Assembly: GCA_021325095.1 (NCBI GenBank)
Contig: JAJPHV010000052.1
Coordinates: forward strand, 1-64,000
Length of the DNA stretch: 64,000 nt
Direction: 5' to 3'
Origin: Chloroflexota bacterium
GTDB taxonomy: Bacteria > Chloroflexota > Anaerolineae > Aggregatilineales > UBA2796
The notes below the pieces were generated by a model. The model was not told the DNA's origin. It did not search any database and saw nothing but the letters and a program-made list of their open reading frames with translations. The position numbers and the translations under genes are program-made. Shown in pieces: positions 6,215-63,223 of the stretch (position 1 is its first letter; each line of letters starts with the position of its first letter).

Positions 6215-6982
6215 TTACCCTTCCTTGAGGGTCACAAACACGATTTGCCCGATGTCGCGCCGCCCCTCGGCAGGCTGCATGTCTGGCGTCAGTTGGCGCA
6301 GCAGTTTGAAGCCCGTCTTATTGAGCAGCGATAGCACGGCCTGAAGTGGATAGCCGCGCCAGGTGTGGGTTTCCTCGGCGCGCTGCCAGTGATCGGTGTA
6401 GCGCAGGATCGTGTACTGCGTGGTCAGTTGCAGAGTTTCGTAGTTAAAGATATTCCGGGCCAGGATCAGGATGTCATGGCCGTTGTCGTAGACAATTTGC
6501 TCGGCATGTTCGGCATCGGACAGCCCCTTGATCGTGCGCAGGTCAAACAAAAACAGCTTGCCGGGCTGCAACGCCGCGTTCGCCTGCCGGAAGACACTCT
6601 CCAGGTCGCGCAAGGTGGGGATGTAATTCAGCGCGCCGCCCACGCACGTCACCATCTCTGCCGAAACGGCTGGCTTGAAGGTGCGCATGTCGCCCACAAT
6701 GAACTGCGCATCGACTCCGCTGGATTGGGCGCTTGCCGTGCCGTAACGCAGCATGGCCGCCGAGGTATCGATCCCTGTGGCGCGGAAGCCGTGTTCGCCA
6801 AACCAGCAGGCCAGGTCGCCCGTGCCGCAGCCCAGGTCAACCAGCGTGCGGCCCGTCCAGTCCATTTCAAAGGCCAGCCCCAGGAGGCGCGCCGCCAGAT
6901 CGACGCTGTACGCGGCGAAGCCCGCCGCCTGGTACACGTCGGACAAGGCGGTGTACGGTTCGAGATGGTTGATGCTTGCCAT
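6215..6982 (-). CDS. Class I SAM-dependent methyltransferase
   Basis: Predicted cytoplasmic methyltransferase, 255 aa, with a Rossmann-type SAM fold. Motif I is VDLGCGTGDLACWF with the glycine-rich turn at residues 51-55, followed by an acidic position in GIDTSAA. A later MVTCVGGALNYIP segment fits motif IV/post-I. Substrate cannot be read. The C-terminal half has an aromatic and hydrophobic make-up typical of small-molecule methyltransferases. Only 43 bp separate it from the DM13 gene upstream on the same strand, and a TATAAT (7014-7019, minus strand) lies in that gap. Confidence 0.88.
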   Translation of the reverse strand: MASINHLEPYTALSDVYQAAGFAAYSVDLAARLLGLAFEMDWTGRTLVDLGCGTGDLACWFGEHGFRATGIDTSAAMLRYGTASAQSSGVDAQFIVGDMRTFKPAVSAEMVTCVGGALNYIPTLRDLESVFRQANAALQPGKLFLFDLRTIKGLSDAEHAEQIVYDNGHDILILARNIFNYETLQLTTQYTILRYTDHWQRAEETHTWRGYPLQAVLSLLNKTGFKLLRQLTPDMQPAEGRRDIGQIVFVTLKEG

Positions 6983-7025
6983 AAAAAGCCTCGGATGAGT
7001 TGAAATAGCGACGATTATATATCCC

Positions 7026-7634
7026 TTATTGCAGCGGAGCCGAACTGTAGACTGCCGACAGGCTTTCGCTGAAAATGACCACGCTCTTATAATTGGCGAT
7101 TTTGAGTTCCTTCGGGATCGTGAACTGCTGGTTGCCCTGGCTGCCTTTGAGCGCGCCCACCGGGAAGGCCGACACGCCCGGCACGTCCAGGTCTTCGCGC
7201 TTCTGAGGAGCCTGTGCCCCGCTCAGGTACACGCGCAGATCGGGGCCATTGGTCACGCTGAAATCGTCAAAACGCAGCAGCAGGCTGCCATCTGCCGAGC
7301 GGTACAGGGTGGCGTGCCCTTTGGCGAGGTGAACCGCGTCAAGCTCGATGAAGTCGCCGGACTTGATGGCCTGCGCGTCCGGCAAGACAGGCGTCGGCTG
7401 CTCGTTGGTGGGCGCGGGAACAACCGTCAGCATGGCAAAGTAGGCGGTGGCGGCGGCTTCCCGGTTGGCTTTGCTCATGTTGGCGAAGACTTCCTGCTGC
7501 GCGGATGTCAGCCCGGAAAAAGCTCCCGACGAGGCCCGGCCAATCAGGAATCGGCGCCATGTCGGGAAGGTGAACAGCAGCGCCACGACGATAGCGCCCA
7601 GGCCCAGCAGTGTCCAGCGTGGGCGATACCTCAT
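7026..7634 (-). CDS. Membrane-anchored DM13-domain protein
   Basis: 202 aa with one N-terminal membrane segment (about residues 8-24) and a C-terminal DM13 domain (about 90-200). The domain is recognisable by GDFIELDAVHLAKG, a RFDDFSVTNGPDLRVYL segment and the closing YKSVVIFSESLSAVYSSAPL. DM13 domains are extracytoplasmic beta-folds suspected of a redox or electron-transfer role; the exact function is unsettled. It probably faces outward. It sits 3' of a pseudo-phosphatase/propeller protein on the same strand, which may reflect a shared envelope operon. Confidence 0.88.
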   Translation of the reverse strand: MRYRPRWTLLGLGAIVVALLFTFPTWRRFLIGRASSGAFSGLTSAQQEVFANMSKANREAAATAYFAMLTVVPAPTNEQPTPVLPDAQAIKSGDFIELDAVHLAKGHATLYRSADGSLLLRFDDFSVTNGPDLRVYLSGAQAPQKREDLDVPGVSAFPVGALKGSQGNQQFTIPKELKIANYKSVVIFSESLSAVYSSAPLQ

Positions 7635-7681
7635 CCAAACCTCTCTCGATGGCGGACGGCAAAGATGATCATCCCGGACAC

Positions 7682-9958
7682 TCAGGGTTTGGGGGTTGGG
7701 GTGGCGGTCAGATCGCTGATCGAGAATGTATACAACATCGCACCCGAAGCCACGTACACGCGCTCGCGCTCGACGTACAGGCCCGAAAGGCCGCGAAAGG
7801 CGCTGTCGTCCGCAGCGCGGTAGCGATGCTGGAACGTCCCGCCCAGGGTGATCTCGAATATGGACATGTCCACCGGATCGCTGATGTAGATGGCGGGCAG
7901 CGAGGCGTTGTTGTCCAGGAACATGGCGTTGGCGCTCTTGGGGCCACCGTCCGGCATTCCACTGTACTCAAAGCGCTGTTCCGTGCCCGCGTTGAATTTC
8001 TTGAGGGTGCCGTTGGAAAACAGCACGAACACGTTGCCGTTGGAGTCGATGGCAAGATCGACGGCGGTTTTCAGGTCGGGACGGTATTCCGTGTCGAAGT
8101 ATTCTTCGGGCGGGGTTGGGTAGGCATCCCCTTCCGGGATGTAGCGCCATATCTGGTTCGCATCGGGATCGAGGACGTACAGCCGTCGGTTCCAGGTGGT
8201 CATGGCGTTCGGCCTGCCCCATCGATCTGCGCCAGGGAGCGGCTGCGAGGTTGCCGGGGCAAAGGTGGGCGAGTACGTGACCAGCAGGCCCTGGCTATCC
8301 AGGGCCGCCAGGACATTGGCCCGCTGCACACCGCCCTCGGCCATCCAGGTCATTGCCAGCAGCTTGCGGACAGAGCGCGTCCCAACCGCCTGTCCCTGCT
8401 GCACAACGGGCTGCGTGGCCCGCGTCGCAATCGAGTTCGAGTTCTGATTGAGCGTATCGCGGTAGATGGCGCTGTTGTTCACGTCCATCGTGTACATATC
8501 GACGCCGCCGCGAATGATCGGCCCCATCAGCTTCGTACCCTCGTTGAAACTGCGCAGCGGCGTCACCGTGCGGCGGGTGACTCTGGCATACGTATCCAGG
8601 ACAAACTGCGCCCGCGCCCGGATTCGCGCCAGGGTCGGGTCGCCCGTGCGCCCGCTGTTGGTTTCGACGGTATCCACCCGCTGGAGGACACCCAGCCAGG
8701 CCGTCTTGGCCCGGTCAACGTCGGTGAGCGGGATGGTGGCCGCCTGGTCGGCGGCAATCTCCACCTCGTGCACGGTTTGCTCGAACTGGGTCACGTCCAC
8801 CTGGGACAGACGCAGCGCCACAACAATGAAGACCACCACCACCGGAACCAGGATCGCCAGCGCAGCCGCCATCATAGCCGGGATGCGCGGTGTGTTTTCT
8901 TCCGGTTCCGGCAGCAGCCGATCCAGGACGGCGCTCAGGCCACCGGCAATGACGCTCAGAAAAGAAAACAGTCCCCCGGCGGCGCGTCGCCCGGCGCGGT
9001 TGGCAGTGCGCCCGGTCTCCGCCACGATCTCGCTCACCGGCGGCAGCGGTTCAGCCGTCGCCATCCCTGCCGTACTGCTTCCAGCGATAGCAGGCGCGAC
9101 GTTCGCCACGTTGCCGACGACTCTGGCCCGTTCCGGCGGCGCTTTGTCCGCCTGCATGAGGGGGCTGGCAGAGGGCACGGCGGGCGCGCGGGATGATCGG
9201 GTGATCTTCGCGCCCGGCTCTGGCTTCACTACGGCGGGGTCAGGTGTATCGATGGACACAAATTCGATCACCATCGCCTGAAGTTTGCTGCCACCCAACG
9301 TCTTCAACGGCTCCATCACGGCCTGAACGCCGCTTGCCCCAAGCGCCGCCCGCAGTTGGCCGCGATCCGCCTTCGCCAGCCCGGCATCGGACAGGACCAT
9401 AACGTGGCCCGGCGCAACGTCGTAGTGAGCCAGCTTGATGTCGGGAACCGGGCTGTAGCCCAGCGGCAGGCTGTTCAGGGCGTACTCGTCGCGCAGATCG
9501 TCCGGGAAGGTCAGGAAGCCTTCGCCCTGCCGGAACAGGCACAGGCACGACCCGGCGCGGGCCACGTAAGCCTCGCGGCCCCGGAACACCAGGCAAATCA
9601 TGTTCGCCTCATAGCGCTGCCCGGCGGCCTGGTTGTGTTCGATCAGGTGGCTGTTGACGGCGGCTACGGCTTCGCGCAGCCCGCTGGTGACGCCACCGCT
9701 GCTGCGAAAATACCAATCAGCCGCCAGTCTGGCAAGTTGCTCGTACAAGGAAGCCTGGCCCTGGTTCATGCCCGCAGGCGTCACCAGCGTAAAAAAGGTG
9801 TCCTGCTCGCGGCCTCGCTGTGGCTTTTTGGGAGGAAGCTGGACAAGCGCGCCAGGCGGCTGTGTACTGACGGCACGGCCACCGACCACAAAGACGTGTC
9901 CAACCAGGGCTTCGAGTTCGTCTATCATCCGGCCTACCCATTTGCCTGTGCTGTGCAT
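7682..9958 (-). CDS. Transmembrane protein with degenerate PP2C-like domain and extracellular beta-propeller
   Basis: 758 aa if it starts at the ATG at 9958; an alternative ATG is at 9928, and further upstream the frame stays open to 10039. Residues about 11-225 look like a PP2C-fold domain that has lost its metal ligands: the usual GDSR strand reads AGSC and the usual SDG reads SDAG. A low-complexity Ala/Pro linker follows, then one strong membrane helix (about 358-381), a helical segment, and a repeat-rich C-terminal propeller (about 520-758) with NHL-like strands such as RRLYVLDPDANQIWRY and NGNVFVLFSNGTLKKF. I infer an inside-to-outside scaffold or sensor, not an active phosphatase. Confidence 0.82.
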   Translation of the reverse strand: MHSTGKWVGRMIDELEALVGHVFVVGGRAVSTQPPGALVQLPPKKPQRGREQDTFFTLVTPAGMNQGQASLYEQLARLAADWYFRSSGGVTSGLREAVAAVNSHLIEHNQAAGQRYEANMICLVFRGREAYVARAGSCLCLFRQGEGFLTFPDDLRDEYALNSLPLGYSPVPDIKLAHYDVAPGHVMVLSDAGLAKADRGQLRAALGASGVQAVMEPLKTLGGSKLQAMVIEFVSIDTPDPAVVKPEPGAKITRSSRAPAVPSASPLMQADKAPPERARVVGNVANVAPAIAGSSTAGMATAEPLPPVSEIVAETGRTANRAGRRAAGGLFSFLSVIAGGLSAVLDRLLPEPEENTPRIPAMMAAALAILVPVVVVFIVVALRLSQVDVTQFEQTVHEVEIAADQAATIPLTDVDRAKTAWLGVLQRVDTVETNSGRTGDPTLARIRARAQFVLDTYARVTRRTVTPLRSFNEGTKLMGPIIRGGVDMYTMDVNNSAIYRDTLNQNSNSIATRATQPVVQQGQAVGTRSVRKLLAMTWMAEGGVQRANVLAALDSQGLLVTYSPTFAPATSQPLPGADRWGRPNAMTTWNRRLYVLDPDANQIWRYIPEGDAYPTPPEEYFDTEYRPDLKTAVDLAIDSNGNVFVLFSNGTLKKFNAGTEQRFEYSGMPDGGPKSANAMFLDNNASLPAIYISDPVDMSIFEITLGGTFQHRYRAADDSAFRGLSGLYVERERVYVASGAMLYTFSISDLTATPTPKP

Positions 9959-42885: not shown

Positions 42886-44004
42886 TCACTTGGCGCGTGC
42901 GCCTTCGGCGGGGCACGTCAGGTGGCGCTCTGCCAGGCCCTGGATGCGGAACCACCAGCGCGAATCGTAAATGACCATGCTGTTGCCGGGGTGGCAGGAT
43001 CGATAGAAAAACTGCTCGAACAGCCGGTGTTCAGGCGGCAGCGGCACGTTGAAGGCTGTCCAGGTCACGCCCGGATTCAGGCTCCCCGATGTGCTTGCCG
43101 ACGGAATGTTGGATGAGTACAGGTTATGGGCCAGGTAGGCATCGGTGACGCCAAAATAGAAGCCAACCGGCGCAACCAGCAAGTAGATCGCCAGTACGCG
43201 CACGAACCAGCGGCTGTCCTTGAGTGTGCGCGGCAGCGACTCATGCCAGGGCGCGATGAGCGCCAGCCCGGCAAAGGCCAGGGCTGCGTTCCAGGGCCAG
43301 ACCGATTGGTTCCAGTTGTGGCCGAGGGGTGACAGGTCGAGCAAGATGCCCAGGTGCAGGCCCAACGCCATGAGGCCAGCCAGCTTGCGCGTGCGAGGGA
43401 AGATGGCGAGCAGCCCTGTGCCGGACTCGGCTGCCACGATGACGAAGCCGAAGTTATCTCGCAGCCAACTCGGTGGAGTGGGGATGAGGCCAGTCAGCAT
43501 CCACTGAGCGCCGCTGTTCATGAAGGCCGGACTGAGCAGTTTGTTCAGACCCGCAAAGCACCATAACGCGATCAGGTGGGCACGGGCCAGCGTCTTCAGA
43601 TTCGGATCGGGCAGCGTTCCCCACAGCAGAAAGATCAGTGACACGATCTCCGGCTGCAACCGCGTCTGGTCAATCAGGACGGCATAGGCCATGAGCGCCG
43701 TATGCAGGACAATGCCAATCTTCGGCCTGACCAGGATCAGGGCCAGCGAGACCAGCAGCACGGCTCCCATATCGAAATAGGGCAGCGGCAGGGCCGGGAG
43801 CATCGGCGGCAAGCTGCGCACCTGCCACAGCGGCCAGGTGATGAGCAGGGTGGCGGCCTGACAGACGACCACAAACCAGCGAAACGCCACAAGCAGTGTA
43901 TCGCCGGAACGAACCGTGCGCAGTGCCGAAACGAGGTGGAACGCTAACGGGTGAACCGACCAGGCACTTTCAACACGCAAAAGCATTGCGCGAAGGTTCA
44001 CCAT
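42886..44004 (-). CDS. Polytopic membrane protein, HTTM/DoxX-like
   Basis: 372 aa with roughly eight hydrophobic helices. Segments such as ALWCFAGLNKLLSPAFM and ALGLHLGILLDLSPLGHNWN recall the HTTM family (vitamin-K-carboxylase-like membrane domain) without its full catalytic set. Function unknown. ATG start; followed on the minus strand by no close gene. Confidence 0.75.
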   Translation of the reverse strand: MVNLRAMLLRVESAWSVHPLAFHLVSALRTVRSGDTLLVAFRWFVVVCQAATLLITWPLWQVRSLPPMLPALPLPYFDMGAVLLVSLALILVRPKIGIVLHTALMAYAVLIDQTRLQPEIVSLIFLLWGTLPDPNLKTLARAHLIALWCFAGLNKLLSPAFMNSGAQWMLTGLIPTPPSWLRDNFGFVIVAAESGTGLLAIFPRTRKLAGLMALGLHLGILLDLSPLGHNWNQSVWPWNAALAFAGLALIAPWHESLPRTLKDSRWFVRVLAIYLLVAPVGFYFGVTDAYLAHNLYSSNIPSASTSGSLNPGVTWTAFNVPLPPEHRLFEQFFYRSCHPGNSMVIYDSRWWFRIQGLAERHLTCPAEGARAK

Positions 44005-44276
44005 TTGATGCCTCGTAACTGTCTTTGGCCTCTAAAGTACAGAGCACCCGCGCGGCAAATGACGAATCGGCCCTCTATTTCACCTCACCCTCTGACCCCT
44101 CTCCGAATTCGAGAGAGGGGAACCGACGGGCGCTGTGTCAACGACTGACTCCCCTCTCTGCTTGCGGAGAGGGGCCGGGGGTGAGGTTCTGTGTAACACG
44201 GCTTGCGGGTTCAGCCCAGCATATTAAGTTCCGTGCCGTCGCACCCGTGCAGATTCCGCGCGCAATCGTGATGAAG
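44005..44276. other. Intergenic region occupied by a double repeat
   Basis: Separates two leftward genes; apart from the repeat at 44083-44186 nothing was recognised. Confidence 0.45.
44083..44186. repeat. GC-rich palindromic repeat, copy 8 (tandem double form)
   Basis: CCTCACCCTCTGACCCCTCTCC...GAGAGAGGGG, an AACCGACGGG junction, then CTCCCCTCTCTG...GGAGAGGGGCCGGGGGTGAGG. Same architecture as copy 9 at 47082. Confidence 0.72.
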
Positions 44277-46628
44277 TTAGTGCTTCGCCATCGCGCTCAC
44301 GGCTACTGCGCCGCCTGCGCTGGCCGCTGCGGTTGGGGCGGCGGGGGCTGTGCCCTCGAATGGCAGCACGCGCCGTGCCTCCTTCGGCGGGCTGACGGGC
44401 AGAATAATGAAGAAGGTGCTGCCCGGCAGCTTCTCCGAGTCGAAGCCCGGACTCTCCACCCAGATGCGCCCACCGTGCCCCTGGATCACGCCGCGCGCGA
44501 TGGTCAGGCCCAGGCCCGGCCCCGCACCCATGAACTTGGTCGCGCCCGTCGAATGCAGCCCCGGATCGGACACACGGAAGAACTTCTCGAAGATCAATTC
44601 GTGGTTCTTGGGGTCGATGCCGATGCCGGTGTCTTTGATGGCGATCAGGATTTCGTCTGTGCCGGTTTGGGGATTCTGCTGCAAATTGGCGGTGATGTCG
44701 ATTCGCCCGCCGTCAGGCGTGTATTTGATGGCGTTGGTCACGATATTGCGAAAAGCCTGGACGAGCCGCTGCATGTCGGCCTCAATGGGTGGCAGACCGC
44801 GCAGGCCACGCGCTACGAGCGTCAATTTGCGCTGCTTGATGTTTTCCGTCAGCGGCTCGATTGCCAGCCGCAAGACGTTTTCGGCGGTGGTCTGTGCAAA
44901 GCGCAAGTCCATCGCGTCCAGGCCAAGCTGGCTCACGTCCAGCATGTCGCCGATCAGCCGTTCCAGGCGATCCGTCGCTTTGCGCAGGTTGTTGGTCATG
45001 CCCGCCATCTGGTCGGGATCGAGCATCTGCTGCTCGTTGAGGGCATCGATGATGTCGGTGTAGCCCCGAATCTGGGCCAGCGGCGTCCGCAATTCATGGC
45101 TGGCGATGGTGATGAAATCGGTTTTGACCGAGTCAAGCTGCTCGATCCGCTCTTTGGTCGCCACCAGGTCCTTGTTGAGGGCCTGCATGTCGTCGCTGGC
45201 CTTACGCAGATCGCGGACTAGGCGCGCATTGCGCAGGGCCACGCCCGTCTGGTTGGCGATGGTCGCCAGCAGTTCCAGGTCGCGCGGGTAGAAGGGGTTA
45301 TCGTTGGCCTTTGCGCCGCAGGCCAGGATGCCGATCAACTGCCCCTGGACGACAATGGGCGCGTAGGCGCTCATGCGCAACTGCTTGAAGAAGGATTTCA
45401 GCTCGGGCGCAACGTCCGCGTACTCGCGGGCATATTCCAGGTCGAATTGCAGCAGCGGCATCCGTTGCGCGAAGAGCGTGTCATACACCGGGCTGTCTTT
45501 GGGAATCCAGCCGCGCACGTCGGGCATCTCGCCCAGGCCCTTTGCCGTTGGCTCGACGCGGATCGTGTCGTTGTCGTCGCGCGTTGCCAGGATCAACCCA
45601 CCGCGCCGCACCCGCAGGGTACTGCGCAGGGCATTCATGGCAACCTCAACCAGTTCGTCCAGTTCGACCACACCCGACACATCCTGGCTGTAGCGGCGCA
45701 GCGCGCTCGACATATCCGCCGAACTGCGTCCGGCCAGACGGTTGGTGATCGCCAGCGTGATCGTTCGCAAGGGGGCATAGATCAGCGCCACCAGGATCGC
45801 CAGCCCGGCCAGCAGCAGGAAGCCGTTTTCCGCTGTCGGGTCTATGGCGCGCCCGATCAGCAGCGCAGCCAGCACCGTCACGGCGGTCACGGCGGTCAGC
45901 ACGGCGGAAGAGAAGGCCAGCCCAAGCACACGCCGGATGTCGAAGACCCGGTGGGCCAGCGCGCCATAGACCACACCCACCATGCCGACAAACTGCGCAA
46001 TCCAACCGATCTCTTTGAGGACCTCGCTGCCGCTGGTTCCCAGCACCGCGCCCATCAGAATGAGCGGGATGATGATAATCCAGAAGAGCGCGCGGTTGGC
46101 GATCTCCGGCAGGTGGGCCTTGTAGAAGCTGTAGAACGTGACCAGCAGCACCAACAAACCGAGCACGGCCCAGCCGCCGACGGCTGTGGCTGCGGCAGCG
46201 TCCGGCTGGGCGCTGAAGACGGTGCTCAACCAGCCCGGCTGGCCCAGGATTGCGCCGTTGGGGATCAAAAAGCTGACGGCGATCAGCCCGGCCCACCATA
46301 GCAGGCCGAGCATCAACATCAGAACGACTCCACTGCGCTGCAAAAATCGCACAGAGAGCGCGGCAAAGACGACCAGCATCAGGCTGGTCAGGTAAACGGC
46401 GATAGCGGGCTGTGTCAGCCCGGCGACGAATAGTGCGGCGTATGGCCCCTCGTGTGCGCGAGGGTGCACAATGTGGATGGCCTGTGCCAGCAGCGCCAGA
46501 AACAGCGCGCCGAGCAGCCAGCCCTGGAGCCTGCCCAGTTGAAGGCGCGTGCTCAGGGCCACCCCTAGCAAAATGAGGTATCCGACGCTGAGGCCCCCGG
46601 CCAGGAAATAGAAAAACGGGATATCCAA
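44277..46628 (-). CDS. Membrane sensor histidine kinase with GAF domain
   Basis: 783 aa. N-terminal region of about eight to nine helices (1-300), GAF domain (about 330-480), coiled segment, HisKA domain with acceptor His near residue 511 in ASHELRTPL, and HATPase_c (about 610-745) with N-box and GxGxG motifs (FMGAGPGLGLTIARG). TTG start supported by GGAG 8 nt upstream. The C-terminal tail is Ala/Pro-rich. No cognate regulator next to it. Confidence 0.93.
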   Translation of the reverse strand: MDIPFFYFLAGGLSVGYLILLGVALSTRLQLGRLQGWLLGALFLALLAQAIHIVHPRAHEGPYAALFVAGLTQPAIAVYLTSLMLVVFAALSVRFLQRSGVVLMLMLGLLWWAGLIAVSFLIPNGAILGQPGWLSTVFSAQPDAAAATAVGGWAVLGLLVLLVTFYSFYKAHLPEIANRALFWIIIIPLILMGAVLGTSGSEVLKEIGWIAQFVGMVGVVYGALAHRVFDIRRVLGLAFSSAVLTAVTAVTVLAALLIGRAIDPTAENGFLLLAGLAILVALIYAPLRTITLAITNRLAGRSSADMSSALRRYSQDVSGVVELDELVEVAMNALRSTLRVRRGGLILATRDDNDTIRVEPTAKGLGEMPDVRGWIPKDSPVYDTLFAQRMPLLQFDLEYAREYADVAPELKSFFKQLRMSAYAPIVVQGQLIGILACGAKANDNPFYPRDLELLATIANQTGVALRNARLVRDLRKASDDMQALNKDLVATKERIEQLDSVKTDFITIASHELRTPLAQIRGYTDIIDALNEQQMLDPDQMAGMTNNLRKATDRLERLIGDMLDVSQLGLDAMDLRFAQTTAENVLRLAIEPLTENIKQRKLTLVARGLRGLPPIEADMQRLVQAFRNIVTNAIKYTPDGGRIDITANLQQNPQTGTDEILIAIKDTGIGIDPKNHELIFEKFFRVSDPGLHSTGATKFMGAGPGLGLTIARGVIQGHGGRIWVESPGFDSEKLPGSTFFIILPVSPPKEARRVLPFEGTAPAAPTAAASAGGAVAVSAMAKH

Positions 46629-58212: not shown

Positions 58213-60291
58213 TCACGCGCCCTGGTTGCCATTTGGCGAGCTTACCGGGTCAGGAACAGCAGACGCATGGTTTTGCTCAGTGCCATCGTGGTTTCCGTTA
58301 TGTCCGTTATGGTAGTGCAAGTTATGAATCTGGTAGGGGACATTGACCACAGCCACCCGTTCCAGTTGCTGTAATGCCAGGTTGAAGATAAACGCGCTGT
58401 TCTGGTGAAGGGCCTGCTCCCAGGGCGTTTCCATAACCAGGTGACCCATGATCACGTTGACGAAACTATCGGGATGCCTGGCAAGCTCTGCTTCAACATG
58501 CTCACGGATCGGGCTGATAAGCTGGCGATACGGTGATTCGATGATGACCAGTTCGCGTTCGCCCAGCACACTAACCACACGTTCTTGCCACTTCTTGCGC
58601 ACGATGGCCGACTTTTCAGGGTTGATCTCAATATGCAGCGCTTTCCACGGAACGCCAAGGGCTTCAGCATAATTGACCAGGCGCAGCGTGCCTGCATGAA
58701 CATCGTCTACCAGTATCAAGCTCACCACCGGGCCGTTGTACTGCTCCAGACGTTTGCCCGCCGCGCTCAAGAGTGCGGCAACCTTGCGGTAGTGATAATG
58801 AATCTGGAAGAAACAGAAGACGAGCGCTGGCACCAGCAAGACGATGAACCACGCCCCCGAAGTGAACTTGGTCACGGTAAAGACGATCATGACGACGCCC
58901 GTAGCCAGCGCACCAAACCCACTCAGCAGCATGTGCCGCTTCCAGTGCGGGTCATATTCCAGCGTGGTTGCTTCTGTCTTCACCACCTCGCCGGGCCGCA
59001 TGTGCCCCATTTTCCAGGCGCGTACCACCATGCCCGTCTGAGACATGGTAAAGCTCAGGAAGACGCCGATAGCGTAGAGCGGGATCAACGCCGAGGTTTC
59101 AGCCTTGAAGAAAATGACCAGCAGGGTCGCCAGCCCCCCCAGGGCCGTGATGCCCCAGGAGAAAACGAGGCGCGTTCCCCGGAACGTCAACTGGCGGGGC
59201 AGGAATCCGTCCCCGGCGTGAAGGGCTGCCAGGCGCGGAAAATCTGCGTAACTGGTATTGGCTGCCATGAGCAGGATGAGCGCCGTACCCGCCAGCGTCA
59301 GGAAATAGAAGAGACTGCCGTTGCCAAACGTTGCACGGGCAATCTGAGAAATGACCGTTTCGGTTTCTGAGGGCACGGCGTGAATCTGATGGGCTAACAG
59401 CGTGAACCCCAGAAAGATGGTGATCAGGATGCTGCTCATCATCATCAGCGTTGCCGCTGCATTCTTGCTCTTGGGTTCCTTGAAGGCCGTAATGCCGTTG
59501 GAGATGGCTTCAATCCCCGTGAGGGCCGTGCAACCGCTTGAAAAAGCACGCAGGATCAAGAACCAGGTCAGTGGTTCGAGCGTGCGGTGAATGGCCTCAA
59601 CCCCCTCGACAGGCGTCAATTGACCGGTGGCATACTTGATGCCGCCGACGATCAAGGTCAGGAAGGCCGCTGCCAGGAAGAAATAGGTAGGGATTGCGAA
59701 AACGCGGCCTGACTCCTTCACGCCGCGCAGGTTCATGATCGTCATGACGATGATGACGCCAACAGCAAACTCAACCCGGTAGCCCTGCAACCAGGGTATC
59801 GCGGACGCGATCTGGGCGGTGCCGTTGGAGATGCTGACGGCAACGGTCAGAATGTAGTCGGTTAGCAGGGCTGCGCCGGCGATCTGGGCGGGCAGTTCTC
59901 CCAGGTTATCACGAGCGACGATGTAAGCGCCACCGCCGTTCGGATAAGCGTAGATGGTCTGACGGTATGACAGCGTGACAATGACGAGTAACACCGAAAT
60001 GGCAACAGCGATGGGGATTGAGATGCCTAAGAATGCCGTACCTGCGAAGGCCAGGATCAGGAGAATTTCCTCGGTAGCATAGGCTGTCGAGGAAAGCGCA
60101 TCCGAAGCGAAAACGGCCAGACCGATGAAACGGCTGACCGCCTGATGAGGCAAATCCTCGGTTGCCAGGGGCCTGCCTATGAGCAGGCGCTTAATAAAAG
60201 ACAATCTCGGCGGTGGCGGCGCGGAAGGATAACCCGCCTCCGTCCTGGTCTTCGGCAAGGATTGGTTACGTGTATCAATTCGCTCTGACAT
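58213..60291 (-). CDS. kimA: KimA-like high-affinity potassium importer (KUP/APC superfamily)
   Basis: 692 aa, about twelve helices (55-490) and a cytoplasmic C-terminal domain (about 510-670). The K+-site residues recalled for Bacillus subtilis KimA match at a constant offset of 28: Asp64/Tyr71 (SDALSSTAYATEE), Asp145/Tyr146/Thr149/Ser153 (TDYILTVAVS) and Thr258 (SGCTALTGIEAIS). YPNGGGAYIVARDNLG and SQTGMVVRAWK are also conserved. Probably H+-coupled K+ uptake. The C-terminal domain in B. subtilis is the c-di-AMP target. It is the last gene of a leftward potassium module, with a TTTA repeat array in its promoter. Confidence 0.92.
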   Translation of the reverse strand: MSERIDTRNQSLPKTRTEAGYPSAPPPPRLSFIKRLLIGRPLATEDLPHQAVSRFIGLAVFASDALSSTAYATEEILLILAFAGTAFLGISIPIAVAISVLLVIVTLSYRQTIYAYPNGGGAYIVARDNLGELPAQIAGAALLTDYILTVAVSISNGTAQIASAIPWLQGYRVEFAVGVIIVMTIMNLRGVKESGRVFAIPTYFFLAAAFLTLIVGGIKYATGQLTPVEGVEAIHRTLEPLTWFLILRAFSSGCTALTGIEAISNGITAFKEPKSKNAAATLMMMSSILITIFLGFTLLAHQIHAVPSETETVISQIARATFGNGSLFYFLTLAGTALILLMAANTSYADFPRLAALHAGDGFLPRQLTFRGTRLVFSWGITALGGLATLLVIFFKAETSALIPLYAIGVFLSFTMSQTGMVVRAWKMGHMRPGEVVKTEATTLEYDPHWKRHMLLSGFGALATGVVMIVFTVTKFTSGAWFIVLLVPALVFCFFQIHYHYRKVAALLSAAGKRLEQYNGPVVSLILVDDVHAGTLRLVNYAEALGVPWKALHIEINPEKSAIVRKKWQERVVSVLGERELVIIESPYRQLISPIREHVEAELARHPDSFVNVIMGHLVMETPWEQALHQNSAFIFNLALQQLERVAVVNVPYQIHNLHYHNGHNGNHDGTEQNHASAVPDPVSSPNGNQGA

Positions 60292-60426: not shown

Positions 60427-60455
60427 AGTATAGACGCCAGCGCGTCAAGATCTCA
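60427..60455 (-). promoter_or_regulatory. kimA promoter with weak -35
   Basis: Minus strand: TGAGAT (60455-60450), 17 bp, TATACT (60432-60427). The weak -35 fits dependence on an activator bound just upstream. Leader about 130 nt. Confidence 0.5.
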
Positions 60456-60491
60456 TAAAGATAAAGCCTGTCGGCATAAATTTTTCGTAAA
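60454..60491 (-). promoter_or_regulatory. KdpE-like binding array in front of kimA
   Basis: Minus strand half-sites TTTACG (60491-60486), five bp, TTTATG (60480-60475), then TTTATC (60465-60460) and TTTATG (60459-60454) touching the -35. The 11-bp period of the first pair equals that I recall for the E. coli kdp operator (TTTATA-N5-TTTACA). Confidence 0.6.
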
Positions 60492-60519
60492 GATCGAGCT
60501 GTCGGCACGGCTGGTCGGG

Positions 60520-60999
60520 TTATTTGTGACTGGCCTGGGCGAGGACTGACGAAGCCGAATCAGGGCGGCCATTGGCGGCTTCGAGGGTGTACAGTTGGCA
60601 GTTCAGACTGTTCAGCCTGTGGCGCAGTGTCCACACCTTAAATTTGTGCCAGTAGGGAAACAGCCCTGCCGGAAGTTTTGCAAAAACGGTCTGCGCGTTC
60701 ACATAGGCCGCCGCGTCGGCCAGGGCTTCGGTTAGCGAATAGTACTGGAACCTGGTGATTTGAAAGTCAACGCCGTATTCTTTAGCCAGCCTGCAAGCGT
60801 TGCGGATCGTCTCGTGTTCTGAACTGGTATATTCGATCTCGCCCATATCTTCGCCCACCAACCCGATATGGGGAACCGCCACCATTCTGACCAATACCAC
60901 CGATGTGTGCGCACGGCTTGCCATCGCGCAGGCCAGATGCATTGCCCTCAGCGTCCATTCAGGATCGGCAAGCTGCACCATTATGGGCCGATTCGCCAC
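60520..60999 (-). CDS. Universal-stress-protein-like small protein
   Basis: 159 aa, alpha/beta fold of the USP type: strand IMVQLADPEWTLRAMHLACAMA, VVLVRMVAV and a C-terminal basic part. The ATP-binding GxxG(S/T) loop is not evident. In full-length KdpD a USP domain precedes the membrane part; here a USP-like protein is a separate gene between kdpE and kimA, so it may supply that lost function in trans. It has its own promoter with a TTTA box. Confidence 0.78.
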   Translation of the reverse strand: MANRPIMVQLADPEWTLRAMHLACAMASRAHTSVVLVRMVAVPHIGLVGEDMGEIEYTSSEHETIRNACRLAKEYGVDFQITRFQYYSLTEALADAAAYVNAQTVFAKLPAGLFPYWHKFKVWTLRHRLNSLNCQLYTLEAANGRPDSASSVLAQASHK

Positions 61000-61051
61000 G
61001 AGATTTCCCCTATGTTCTCTGTCTCATTGACAGCTTATGGCTGAGGACATC

Positions 61052-61080
61052 AAGATAGGGTCAATGACAACGGCGATCCA
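61052..61080 (-). promoter_or_regulatory. Promoter of the USP-like gene
   Basis: Minus strand: TGGATC (61080-61075), 17 bp, TATCTT (61057-61052). Weak -35 directly next to the TTTA box, as at kimA. Leader about 45 nt. Confidence 0.5.
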
Positions 61081-61096
61081 ATAAAGATTTTGTAAA
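61080..61096 (-). promoter_or_regulatory. KdpE-like box in front of the USP-like gene
   Basis: Minus strand TTTACA (61096-61091), five bp, TTTATT (61085-61080). Same order and spacing as the first pair upstream of kimA. Confidence 0.62.
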
Positions 61097-61158: not shown

Positions 61159-61854
61159 CTATTCGGTATCAATGAAGCGATAGCCTATGCCCGGCTCATT
61201 GAGGATATAGCGGATGTTGCGCGCGGGGTCTTCGCGCAATTTTTTGCGGATCTGATTGATAAACACGCGAACGTAATGATCCATTTCGCTGTATTCAGCG
61301 CCCCACACCTGGCCCAACAGCGCACGATGAGTCATGACTTTGCCGGGGTGAGTAGCCAGCAATCGCAATAGCTCATATTCCTTCGGGGTGAGATGTACCT
61401 CTTCGCCCTCAACAAAAACACGGCGATTAACCAGGTCGATCAGCAACGCACCGACCCGAATCTCCGCGGTGGAACTGGTGCTCGGTTCGACAGCGCTGCG
61501 TCGCAAAACTGCCTGGATGCGGGCCTCAAGTTCCCCCATGCTGAAAGGCTTGGTCACATAGTCATCGGCCCCCGCGTGTAAGGCATCAATCTTGATTTTC
61601 TCGTCCTCACGCACCGAAAGCATGATGATGGGGACTTTGCTCCACTCACGGAGATTCTTGCAGACCTCCAGGCCATCGGGCGGGCTGCCCAGCGTAACGT
61701 CAAGGATGATCAGGTTGGGGGTATACTGCGCAGCCATCTGAAGCGCTTCAGTGCCGTTGGCCGCAGCCAGCACCTGGTAACCGGCGGCTTTCAGCCCGGT
61801 TTGCAGCATTTTTCGAATGGCAAGTTCATCATCGACAATGAGGATCCTGATCAA
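61159..61854 (-). CDS. kdpE: KdpE-type response regulator (OmpR family)
   Basis: 231 aa. Receiver domain with acidic residues at VDDE (8-10), phospho-acceptor Asp52 in ILDVTLG, and Lys in VTKPFSMGELEARI; winged-helix DNA-binding domain (about 130-228) with LTPKEYELLRLLATHPGKVMTHRALLGQVWG. The TTG at 61854 is chosen because GGAGG lies 9 nt upstream. The gene overlaps the kinase gene by 26 bp, typical of a kdpDE-like pair. Confidence 0.92.
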   Translation of the reverse strand: MIRILIVDDELAIRKMLQTGLKAAGYQVLAAANGTEALQMAAQYTPNLIILDVTLGSPPDGLEVCKNLREWSKVPIIMLSVREDEKIKIDALHAGADDYVTKPFSMGELEARIQAVLRRSAVEPSTSSTAEIRVGALLIDLVNRRVFVEGEEVHLTPKEYELLRLLATHPGKVMTHRALLGQVWGAEYSEMDHYVRVFINQIRKKLREDPARNIRYILNEPGIGYRFIDTE

Positions 61855-63223
61855 GGTCAATATCCTCCACAACCGGGAGCGAGAAGATGAAGGTTACACC
61901 ACCACCTATTGTATCTTCAACCCAGAGCCGACCCTTGTGCGCCTCGATTATGCCCCTGGCGATTGCCATGCCCAGACCGATATTGCCCTCTCTACCGCGA
62001 TAAAAGGGTTCCCAGATTAGCTCGCGCTCTTCGGGCAGGAGATCCGGGCCGTGATTAATAATCGACACGCGCGCTTCACCTTCCTGAAAGCTGCCGATAA
62101 TCTCTATTTTGCTGTCGGCTGGCTCGTAGCGTAACGAGTTTTCCACCAGGTTACTCAACGCCTGTAGCATCAGCCCATAATCAAAGCGAACCAGCGGCAT
62201 CCGGTCCGGAAAGTGCATCTTGATGCGCTCCCGGTGGGTGAGTTGCCAGGTTCGGGCGGCCACATCTCCGACAACCTCTTCCAGATCATTCCAAGCATCG
62301 TTGATCTTTAGAGCACCTGCCTTCAGGCGCGAGATGTCAAGGAGGTTGCCAACCATCTTATTAAGGTGATCAGCCTCGTTCTCGATTGTCCGAGAAATCT
62401 CCATGCGCTCCGCTTCGGTCAGTTTGGCGTGAAGCTCCAACAAGTTGCTGGCTGAGGTTTTGATGATCGTGATAGGCGTGCGCAAATCGTGGGAGACCGA
62501 GTGGAGCAGCGCCGTTTTCAAGCGATCCGCTTCCTGATAACTATGCGCTTTTCGAGCGCGCTCGTTCAATTCGATCCGTTCCAGAGCTGCCGAAGCCTGA
62601 GCGGAACTGGCAGTAATGAGGCGGATGAGCGACGCTGTGGGGGCCTGGTCAAATGTCACCCGCAGCGTTCCGTAGATATCGTGCTCCGTATGGAGCAGAA
62701 GATACAGCTCATTCTGTGCGCTTGAAGAAGTTTCAATTTTACCCGGAAGGATGTCAACGTCCTGGGCTAACAGATCCATTTTGAGGATGGACTTCAGGGC
62801 CTGGTAGACACTTTCCCTGTCGGTTAGCTGGTTGAACGTACTGCTCAATTTATAAAGGATATCCTGTTCGTAGGCGCGCTGACGGGCATTATCGGCCTGT
62901 CTACGGACTTGCGCCGCAAGCTGGCCGGTCAGTATGGCGACGGCGAAATAGATGACGAGATCGAGTAATTCGTGCGGATCCGCCACCACGAACGTGTACA
63001 AAGGCTTGACCAGGAAAAAGTTGAAACACAGAAAGCTGATCACAGCGGCGACGAGCGAAGGGCCTGTGCCCTGGTAGATGGCGCTGACGAGGATAGACAA
63101 CAAATAGACCAGCGCAAAATTCGCCAGGGTGAGTTCATCTCGCAGAAACCACAGGAAGAGCGTTACGCCGCCGACCAGGGCGGCAGCCAGAACGTACTTT
63201 GCTACAGATTTTCGGTAAGACAT
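61829..63223 (-). CDS. kdpD: KdpD-like sensor kinase lacking the N-terminal KdpD and USP domains
   Basis: 464 aa versus about 900 for full KdpD. It starts directly at the four-helix DUF4118 region (helices about 11-28, 36-52, 56-72, 85-102), with NFFLVKPLYTFVVADPHELL, a KdpD hallmark. A GAF-like domain (about 120-215), HisKA with His245 in SVSHDLRTP, and HATPase_c (about 330-455) follow. The cytoplasmic sensor half is missing; a USP-like gene nearby may replace part of it. ATG start. Confidence 0.92.
   Translation of the reverse strand: MSYRKSVAKYVLAAALVGGVTLFLWFLRDELTLANFALVYLLSILVSAIYQGTGPSLVAAVISFLCFNFFLVKPLYTFVVADPHELLDLVIYFAVAILTGQLAAQVRRQADNARQRAYEQDILYKLSSTFNQLTDRESVYQALKSILKMDLLAQDVDILPGKIETSSSAQNELYLLLHTEHDIYGTLRVTFDQAPTASLIRLITASSAQASAALERIELNERARKAHSYQEADRLKTALLHSVSHDLRTPITIIKTSASNLLELHAKLTEAERMEISRTIENEADHLNKMVGNLLDISRLKAGALKINDAWNDLEEVVGDVAARTWQLTHRERIKMHFPDRMPLVRFDYGLMLQALSNLVENSLRYEPADSKIEIIGSFQEGEARVSIINHGPDLLPEERELIWEPFYRGREGNIGLGMAIARGIIEAHKGRLWVEDTIGGGVTFIFSLPVVEDIDLDQDPHCR

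Follow-up and report, generated by a model that had tools for sequence, protein, structure and literature searches.

A candidate four-half-site KdpE operator upstream of kimA and a USP-like gene in an Anaerolineae genome, with counterparts at potassium genes of other bacteria

The promoters of kimA and of a USP-like gene in the 64,000-nt window (the whole stretch of Anaerolineae DNA analysed) share a four-part repeat element, and judging from its layout and surroundings we consider it very probable that both copies are operators of the neighbouring KdpE-like regulator, which would activate the two genes in a PhoB-like manner with the last box replacing the −35 element. The half-sites, their spacing, the position of the −10 element, the gene context and the conservation can all be read directly from the DNA compared here. 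Specifically, the element consists of four direct-repeat half-sites with the consensus YTKAYR, which start at relative positions 0/11/32/43 or 0/11/33/44 and are followed 10 bp on by TANNNT. The kimA copy reads TTTACG-N5-TTTATG-N15-TTTATG-N5-TTGACG-N10-TATACT, and the USP copy TTTACA-N5-TTTATT-N15-TTGACC-N5-TTGATG-N10-TAAGCT. Half-sites 3 and 4 are separated from the −10 by 21 bp and 10 bp, respectively, neither of which is usual for a −35. The element belongs to the known KdpE/PhoB-type direct-repeat operators, as a variant that is larger, much better supported and more general than an earlier, sequence-only reading of this DNA had proposed.

Table 1. Genes and predicted regulatory features of the potassium cluster in the window
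Feature	Position	Strand	Basis or detail
kimA, APC-family K+ importer	58213..60291	(-)	6s3k match, Pfam AA_permease_2
kimA predicted −10, TATACT	60427..60432	(-)	10 bp past half-site 4
kimA candidate operator	60443..60491	(-)	TTTACG 60491-60486, TTTATG 60480-60475, TTTATG 60459-60454, TTGACG 60448-60443; geometry recurs in relatives
USP-like gene, 159 aa, GTG start	60520..60999	(-)	predicted fold and structural matches
USP predicted −10, TAAGCT	61032..61037	(-)	10 bp past half-site 4
USP candidate operator	61048..61096	(-)	TTTACA 61096-61091, TTTATT 61085-61080, TTGACC 61064-61059, TTGATG 61053-61048
KdpE-like response regulator (OmpR/PhoB family), proposed activator; start codon uncertain	61159..61872	(-)	NCBIfam, PDB
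KdpD-like sensor kinase, 464 aa, DUF4118-HisKA-HATPase only	61829..63223	(-)	domain search

The cluster runs on the minus strand in the order kdpD (truncated)-kdpE-USP-kimA (Table 1), with one short gap 5′ of the USP-like gene and another 5′ of kimA, each containing one TTTA-type box pair. The kdpDE genes are adjacent, and the cluster is kept in relatives. The kimA product matches the solved KimA structure 6s3k over residues 33-654, the full transporter (E=4.4e-130), so that it resembles KimA throughout and its transport function is predicted. For the regulator, the top NCBIfam model is KdpE with 222.5 bits; since this lies below the 325-bit equivalog cut-off, we refer to the protein as KdpE-like. 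Its best PDB match is E. coli KdpE (4kny, E=1e-57), and among the DNA-contact residues of E. coli KdpE, R193 and R200 are kept and T215 is replaced by N. We count both the sub-cut-off score and this replacement against the KdpE-operator reading. The KdpD-like kinase is devoid of the N-terminal KdpD and Usp domains. A riboswitch was looked for 5′ of kimA, with zero Rfam matches in the 56-64 kb region.

The sequence-only reading had named the upstream half of each element, and the two box pairs are indeed present, TTTACG-N5-TTTATG before kimA and TTTACA-N5-TTTATT before the USP-like gene, in a common order and with an 11-bp period. Within the window, TTTAYR-N5-TTTAY matches exactly twice with both strands counted, at these boxes, where about 0.33 matches per Mb are expected from second-order Markov simulation of the window. 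Genome-wide, there are 15 matches versus 6 for the reversed control, a mild enrichment that makes the two-box pattern alone weak evidence. The case rests on the longer four-site element. Of the two extra half-sites that had been proposed at kimA, TTTATG at 60459 is genuine and constitutes half-site 3, whereas TTTATC at 60465 falls outside the register. Half-site 3 pairs with TTGACG at 60448, which had been overlooked, as had the entire downstream pair at the USP promoter (TTGACC at 61064 and TTGATG at 61053).

Related loci of the same order were picked by similarity to the USP protein, with no DNA motif used, and the regions upstream of USP and kimA were inspected. At 37 such loci from other genomes, 34 matches were found at this spacing, compared to 3 at all other combinations tested. 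Past half-site 4, TANNNT lies at exactly 10 bp in 26 of the 34 matches and at 9 bp in four, and positions outside the fixed pattern are also conserved, such as the C directly 5′ of half-site 4 (41/46 sites). A search of the 6.58-Mb genome with the four-site pattern gave three exact hits, each preceding a USP or kimA gene; two are those in the window, the third is ahead of a second USP-kimA pair on contig 30, and one additional site fits with one mismatch. Across 154 genomes of the order, we found 49 matches (35 with the shorter and 14 with the longer middle spacing); the reversed pattern gave 0 in either scan. For the full element, the outcome went against the refuting condition named in the sequence-only reading, that the pattern be as frequent in random sequence. 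Most of the order-wide matches lie directly 5′ of USP or KimA genes, and the rest include KdpA and full-length KdpD.

The pooled half-site model was trained on pattern-chosen sites, which we count against the main reading. Scored promoter by promoter against Markov resamples, the element is present at 27 of the 29 USP genes in potassium clusters, the remaining two scoring slightly below the limit, and at 3 of the 11 lone USP genes, two of which (L074 and L077) have kdpA nearby by coordinates. An element of their own was found for 14/22 kimA genes; the eight that had none by this scoring count against the main reading, and some of them are probably read through from USP. The second USP-kimA pair (L040, G000:C30, ~6465-9252; 32% and 49% identity) has the four-site operator and no kdpDE beside it, and would therefore be controlled in trans. 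This genome has its kdpFABC on contig 6 (L039, G000:C6); the promoter there was searched for the four-site operator and none was found, which we likewise count against the main reading. In that locus a second KdpE-like gene (50% identity) and a third USP gene precede kdpFABC (kdpA at 42968-44710), and an ORF upstream resembles, as judged by eye, an insertion-sequence transposase.

Beyond the order, 84,980 named genomes (257 Gb) were scanned for the exact pattern. This gave 54 loci from at least nine phyla, where chance would yield about one at even composition and perhaps ten with AT-rich genomes, according to our own base-composition estimate. Record titles assign these loci to Chloroflexota, Planctomycetota, beta- and other Pseudomonadota, Geobacteraceae, Desulfobulbus, Myxococcales/Polyangia, Acidobacteria, Gemmatimonadetes, Clostridium, Melainabacteria and Synergistales. 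At 47 of the 54 loci the element is located directly 5′ of kdpA, a KimA-like or other APC permease gene, trkH, kup, USP, kdpE or kdpD, and Pfam confirms TrkH, K_trans and KdpA among the downstream products. Among the other seven, L145, L156 and L188 stop at a contig edge; kdpD or kdpDE is present at L150 (YflT-like gene), L155 (porin-like gene) and L194. In L147, the operator (346-410) precedes a short ORF similar to the C-terminal soluble tail of KimA, which could be either the remains of a gene or a regulatory domain on its own. The scan also placed the four-site operator upstream of genes for K+ importers that are normally not attributed to KdpE control, namely trkH in a Dehalococcoidaceae MAG (L176) and kup in Cupriavidus (L193). 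In genomes of Geobacteraceae and their relatives (L151, L152, L153, L171, L175 and L146), it lies 5′ of an APC permease ~30% identical to KimA, which is possibly an uncharacterised K+ importer.

The likeness to the E. coli kdp operator, which the sequence-only reading had pointed out, is borne out by the published half-sites. E. coli KdpE recognises TTTATA-N5-TTTACA, located at −72 to −50; altering TTTA in either half abolishes binding (PMC3264566). The window elements resemble this kdpFABC operator in having two TTTA-type 6-bp direct repeats with a 5-bp linker, an equal start distance and a K+-uptake gene downstream; counted from the predicted −10, with the conserved hexamer set at −12 to −7, their upstream pair falls at −71 to −55, matching the position of the E. 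coli footprint. Unlike the E. coli operator as described, which comprises one pair, they have a second full pair 21 bp on and 10 bp from the −10. The kdp promoter of MG1655 itself reads TTTATA-N5-TTTACA-N15-TTTGCG-N5-TTTGCA-N10-TACCCT, with a geometry equal to that of the four-site element and a second pair (TTTGCG/TTTGCA) that is one base off the consensus in each half-site. The E. coli control site appears to be a worn version of the four-part element.

Other kdp promoters were gathered by KdpA similarity, and the second pair was sought at 32 distances, anchored on the upstream pair only. The best distance was 21 in E. coli, Enterobacter, Klebsiella, Duffyella, Providencia, Proteus, a Comamonadaceae, Moraxella and Ideonella, and in Raoultella and Pluralibacter a distance of 22 ranks second; these promoters are not independent, as they mostly come from related enterics. 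Half-sites 1, 2 and 4 are retained in the kdp promoters of Rhizobium, Roseomonas and Azospirillum oryzae. No convincing four-site element was seen in the kdp promoters of Deinococcus, Allomeiothermus, Bacillus badius, Lactiplantibacillus, Arthrobacter, Tsukamurella, Acetobacter, Komagataeibacter, Thalassospira and Azospirillum lipoferum, and these ten, which we count against the main reading, make the element widespread but not universal. Further KdpE-like pairs occur well upstream of the known kdp site in E. coli MG1655 (L113; TTGATG-gttta-TTTACA, ~188 bp 5′ of kdpF) and in Klebsiella (L214; TTTATA-cttaa-TTTACA). The open literature that we searched holds no earlier description of a four-site kdp/KdpE operator; older kdp-promoter work outside it may contain relevant mapping.

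In Mycobacterium smegmatis, the KdpE site defined by EMSA is the 22-bp CCGTAAAGAAACCATCAAGGCC, reported as a single site at a SigF promoter and as unlike other KdpE sites (PMC5401905). Read on the other strand, it contains TTGATG-N5-TTTACG, a perfect YTKAYR pair; it thus shares this pair with the window elements and differs from them in being reported as a single site and in its SigF promoter. A second comparison is offered by the PHO box, which is built of 11-nt direct repeats, similar 11-bp direct repeats being bound by members of the OmpR/PhoB family (PMC4415409). Like PHO boxes, the four-site element has tandem 11-bp direct repeats in several copies, the last of them near the −10, and lacks a −35 at the usual distance; unlike them, it has YTKAYR in place of the CTGTCAT-type repeat, a fixed step of 21-22 bp between pairs, and potassium rather than phosphate genes downstream.

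At PhoB promoters, the last repeat lies close to the −10 and there is no −35 at the usual distance. By analogy, we propose that under K+ scarcity the KdpD-like kinase would phosphorylate KdpE, and that two tandem KdpE dimers would then fill the four direct-repeat half-sites, one at roughly −71 to −55 and the other at roughly −39 to −23, separated by some two helical turns and facing the same side of the DNA. Ending 10 bp before the −10, the last half-site would stand in for the −35, so that KdpE might recruit σ70 RNA polymerase much as PhoB does, and kimA (K+ import) and the USP-like gene would be switched on. KdpE binding, its phosphorylation, the activation and the K+ signal are what we infer here, and the absence of a −35 at the usual distance (spacers of 21 and 10 bp) fits σ70 recruitment as at PHO-box promoters.

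Other explanations of the repeats were weighed against this one. The idea that a KdpE-type activator works on E. coli-kdp-like direct repeats was already part of the sequence-only reading and is strongly supported by the gene context, the half-site match and the specificity for potassium genes across phyla. That reading also held that a single TTTA-N-TTTA pair abuts a weak −35 that is separated from the −10 by a 17-bp spacer, and this we consider quite unlikely. Hexamers that fit can be picked out at both promoters (TGAGAT-N17-TATACT and TGGATC-N17-TATCTT), but what relatives conserve is four half-sites and a −10 placed 10 bp past half-site 4, not those hexamers. Moreover, the USP −10 implied by the 17-bp spacer, TATCTT, overlaps half-site 4. 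The proposal that the USP box touches a weak −35 was likewise not confirmed.

It is scarcely credible that the boxes are chance products of AT-rich DNA or a row of −35-like hexamers serving no activator: TTGACG does resemble a −35 hexamer, and the two-box counts given above (15 versus 6) would leave room for such a view, but the distances separating half-sites 3 and 4 from the −10 are unusual for a −35, and the strict 11/21-22/11 spacing with its 0 control matches contradicts it. A different OmpR/PhoB-family regulator, either PhoB-like or the KdpE-like protein of contig 6, might also bind the operators in place of the adjacent KdpE, considering that family members recognise similar 11-bp direct repeats (PMC4415409) and that the second KdpE-like gene, at 50% identity, is present in the same genome. 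We regard this as unlikely, since the matches precede potassium and not phosphate genes, the half-sites agree with mapped KdpE sites, and the adjacent kdpE is a conserved neighbour of these promoters.

The USP-like gene raises the question of what its product does in a potassium cluster. A Pfam search of the 159-aa protein itself gave no match, and relatives match Usp in 14/29 cases; its predicted fold is USP-like (pLDDT 85), and in Foldseek its best solved matches are USPs, with the KdpD USP domain 7ji4 second-best. KdpD is truncated in 21/22 loci with a nearby USP gene, and 5/6 loci with full-length KdpD are without a USP gene, as if the Usp module of KdpD could be detached as a free gene; as most loci were chosen for having a USP gene, this association is only suggestive. 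In E. coli, UspC scaffolds KdpD/KdpE (PMC2714519, PMC3610689). The two systems are alike in that a USP would work together with KdpD/KdpE in potassium control, and unlike in that the KdpD of the window has no Usp domain of its own and a free USP gene stands in the cluster under the operator. It is a reasonable idea, by analogy with UspC scaffolding, that the USP-like protein is a detached sensory module acting in trans.

On balance, although with less assurance than for the window itself, we favour a broader interpretation, namely that the general bacterial KdpE operator has four half-sites (11/21-22/11 bp) with the last box 10 bp from the −10 and governs unrelated K+ importers (KdpFABC, KimA, Kup and TrkH) in many phyla. 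The textbook E. coli operator would then be its upstream half, accompanied by an unrecognised degenerate downstream pair, and the Anaerolineae USP-like protein would be a KdpD sensory module that has become detached and is subject to feedback control. Such an element would provide a sequence signature for the potassium-starvation regulon that is searchable in raw genomes of many phyla, and it would bring under one element the KdpE sites of E. coli and of mycobacteria, which have been reported as dissimilar. For E. coli kdp, among the best-studied bacterial promoters, it directly predicts that the −35 region holds a second KdpE pair. Finally, it suggests KdpE control of KimA, a transporter that in Bacillus is under a c-di-AMP riboswitch.
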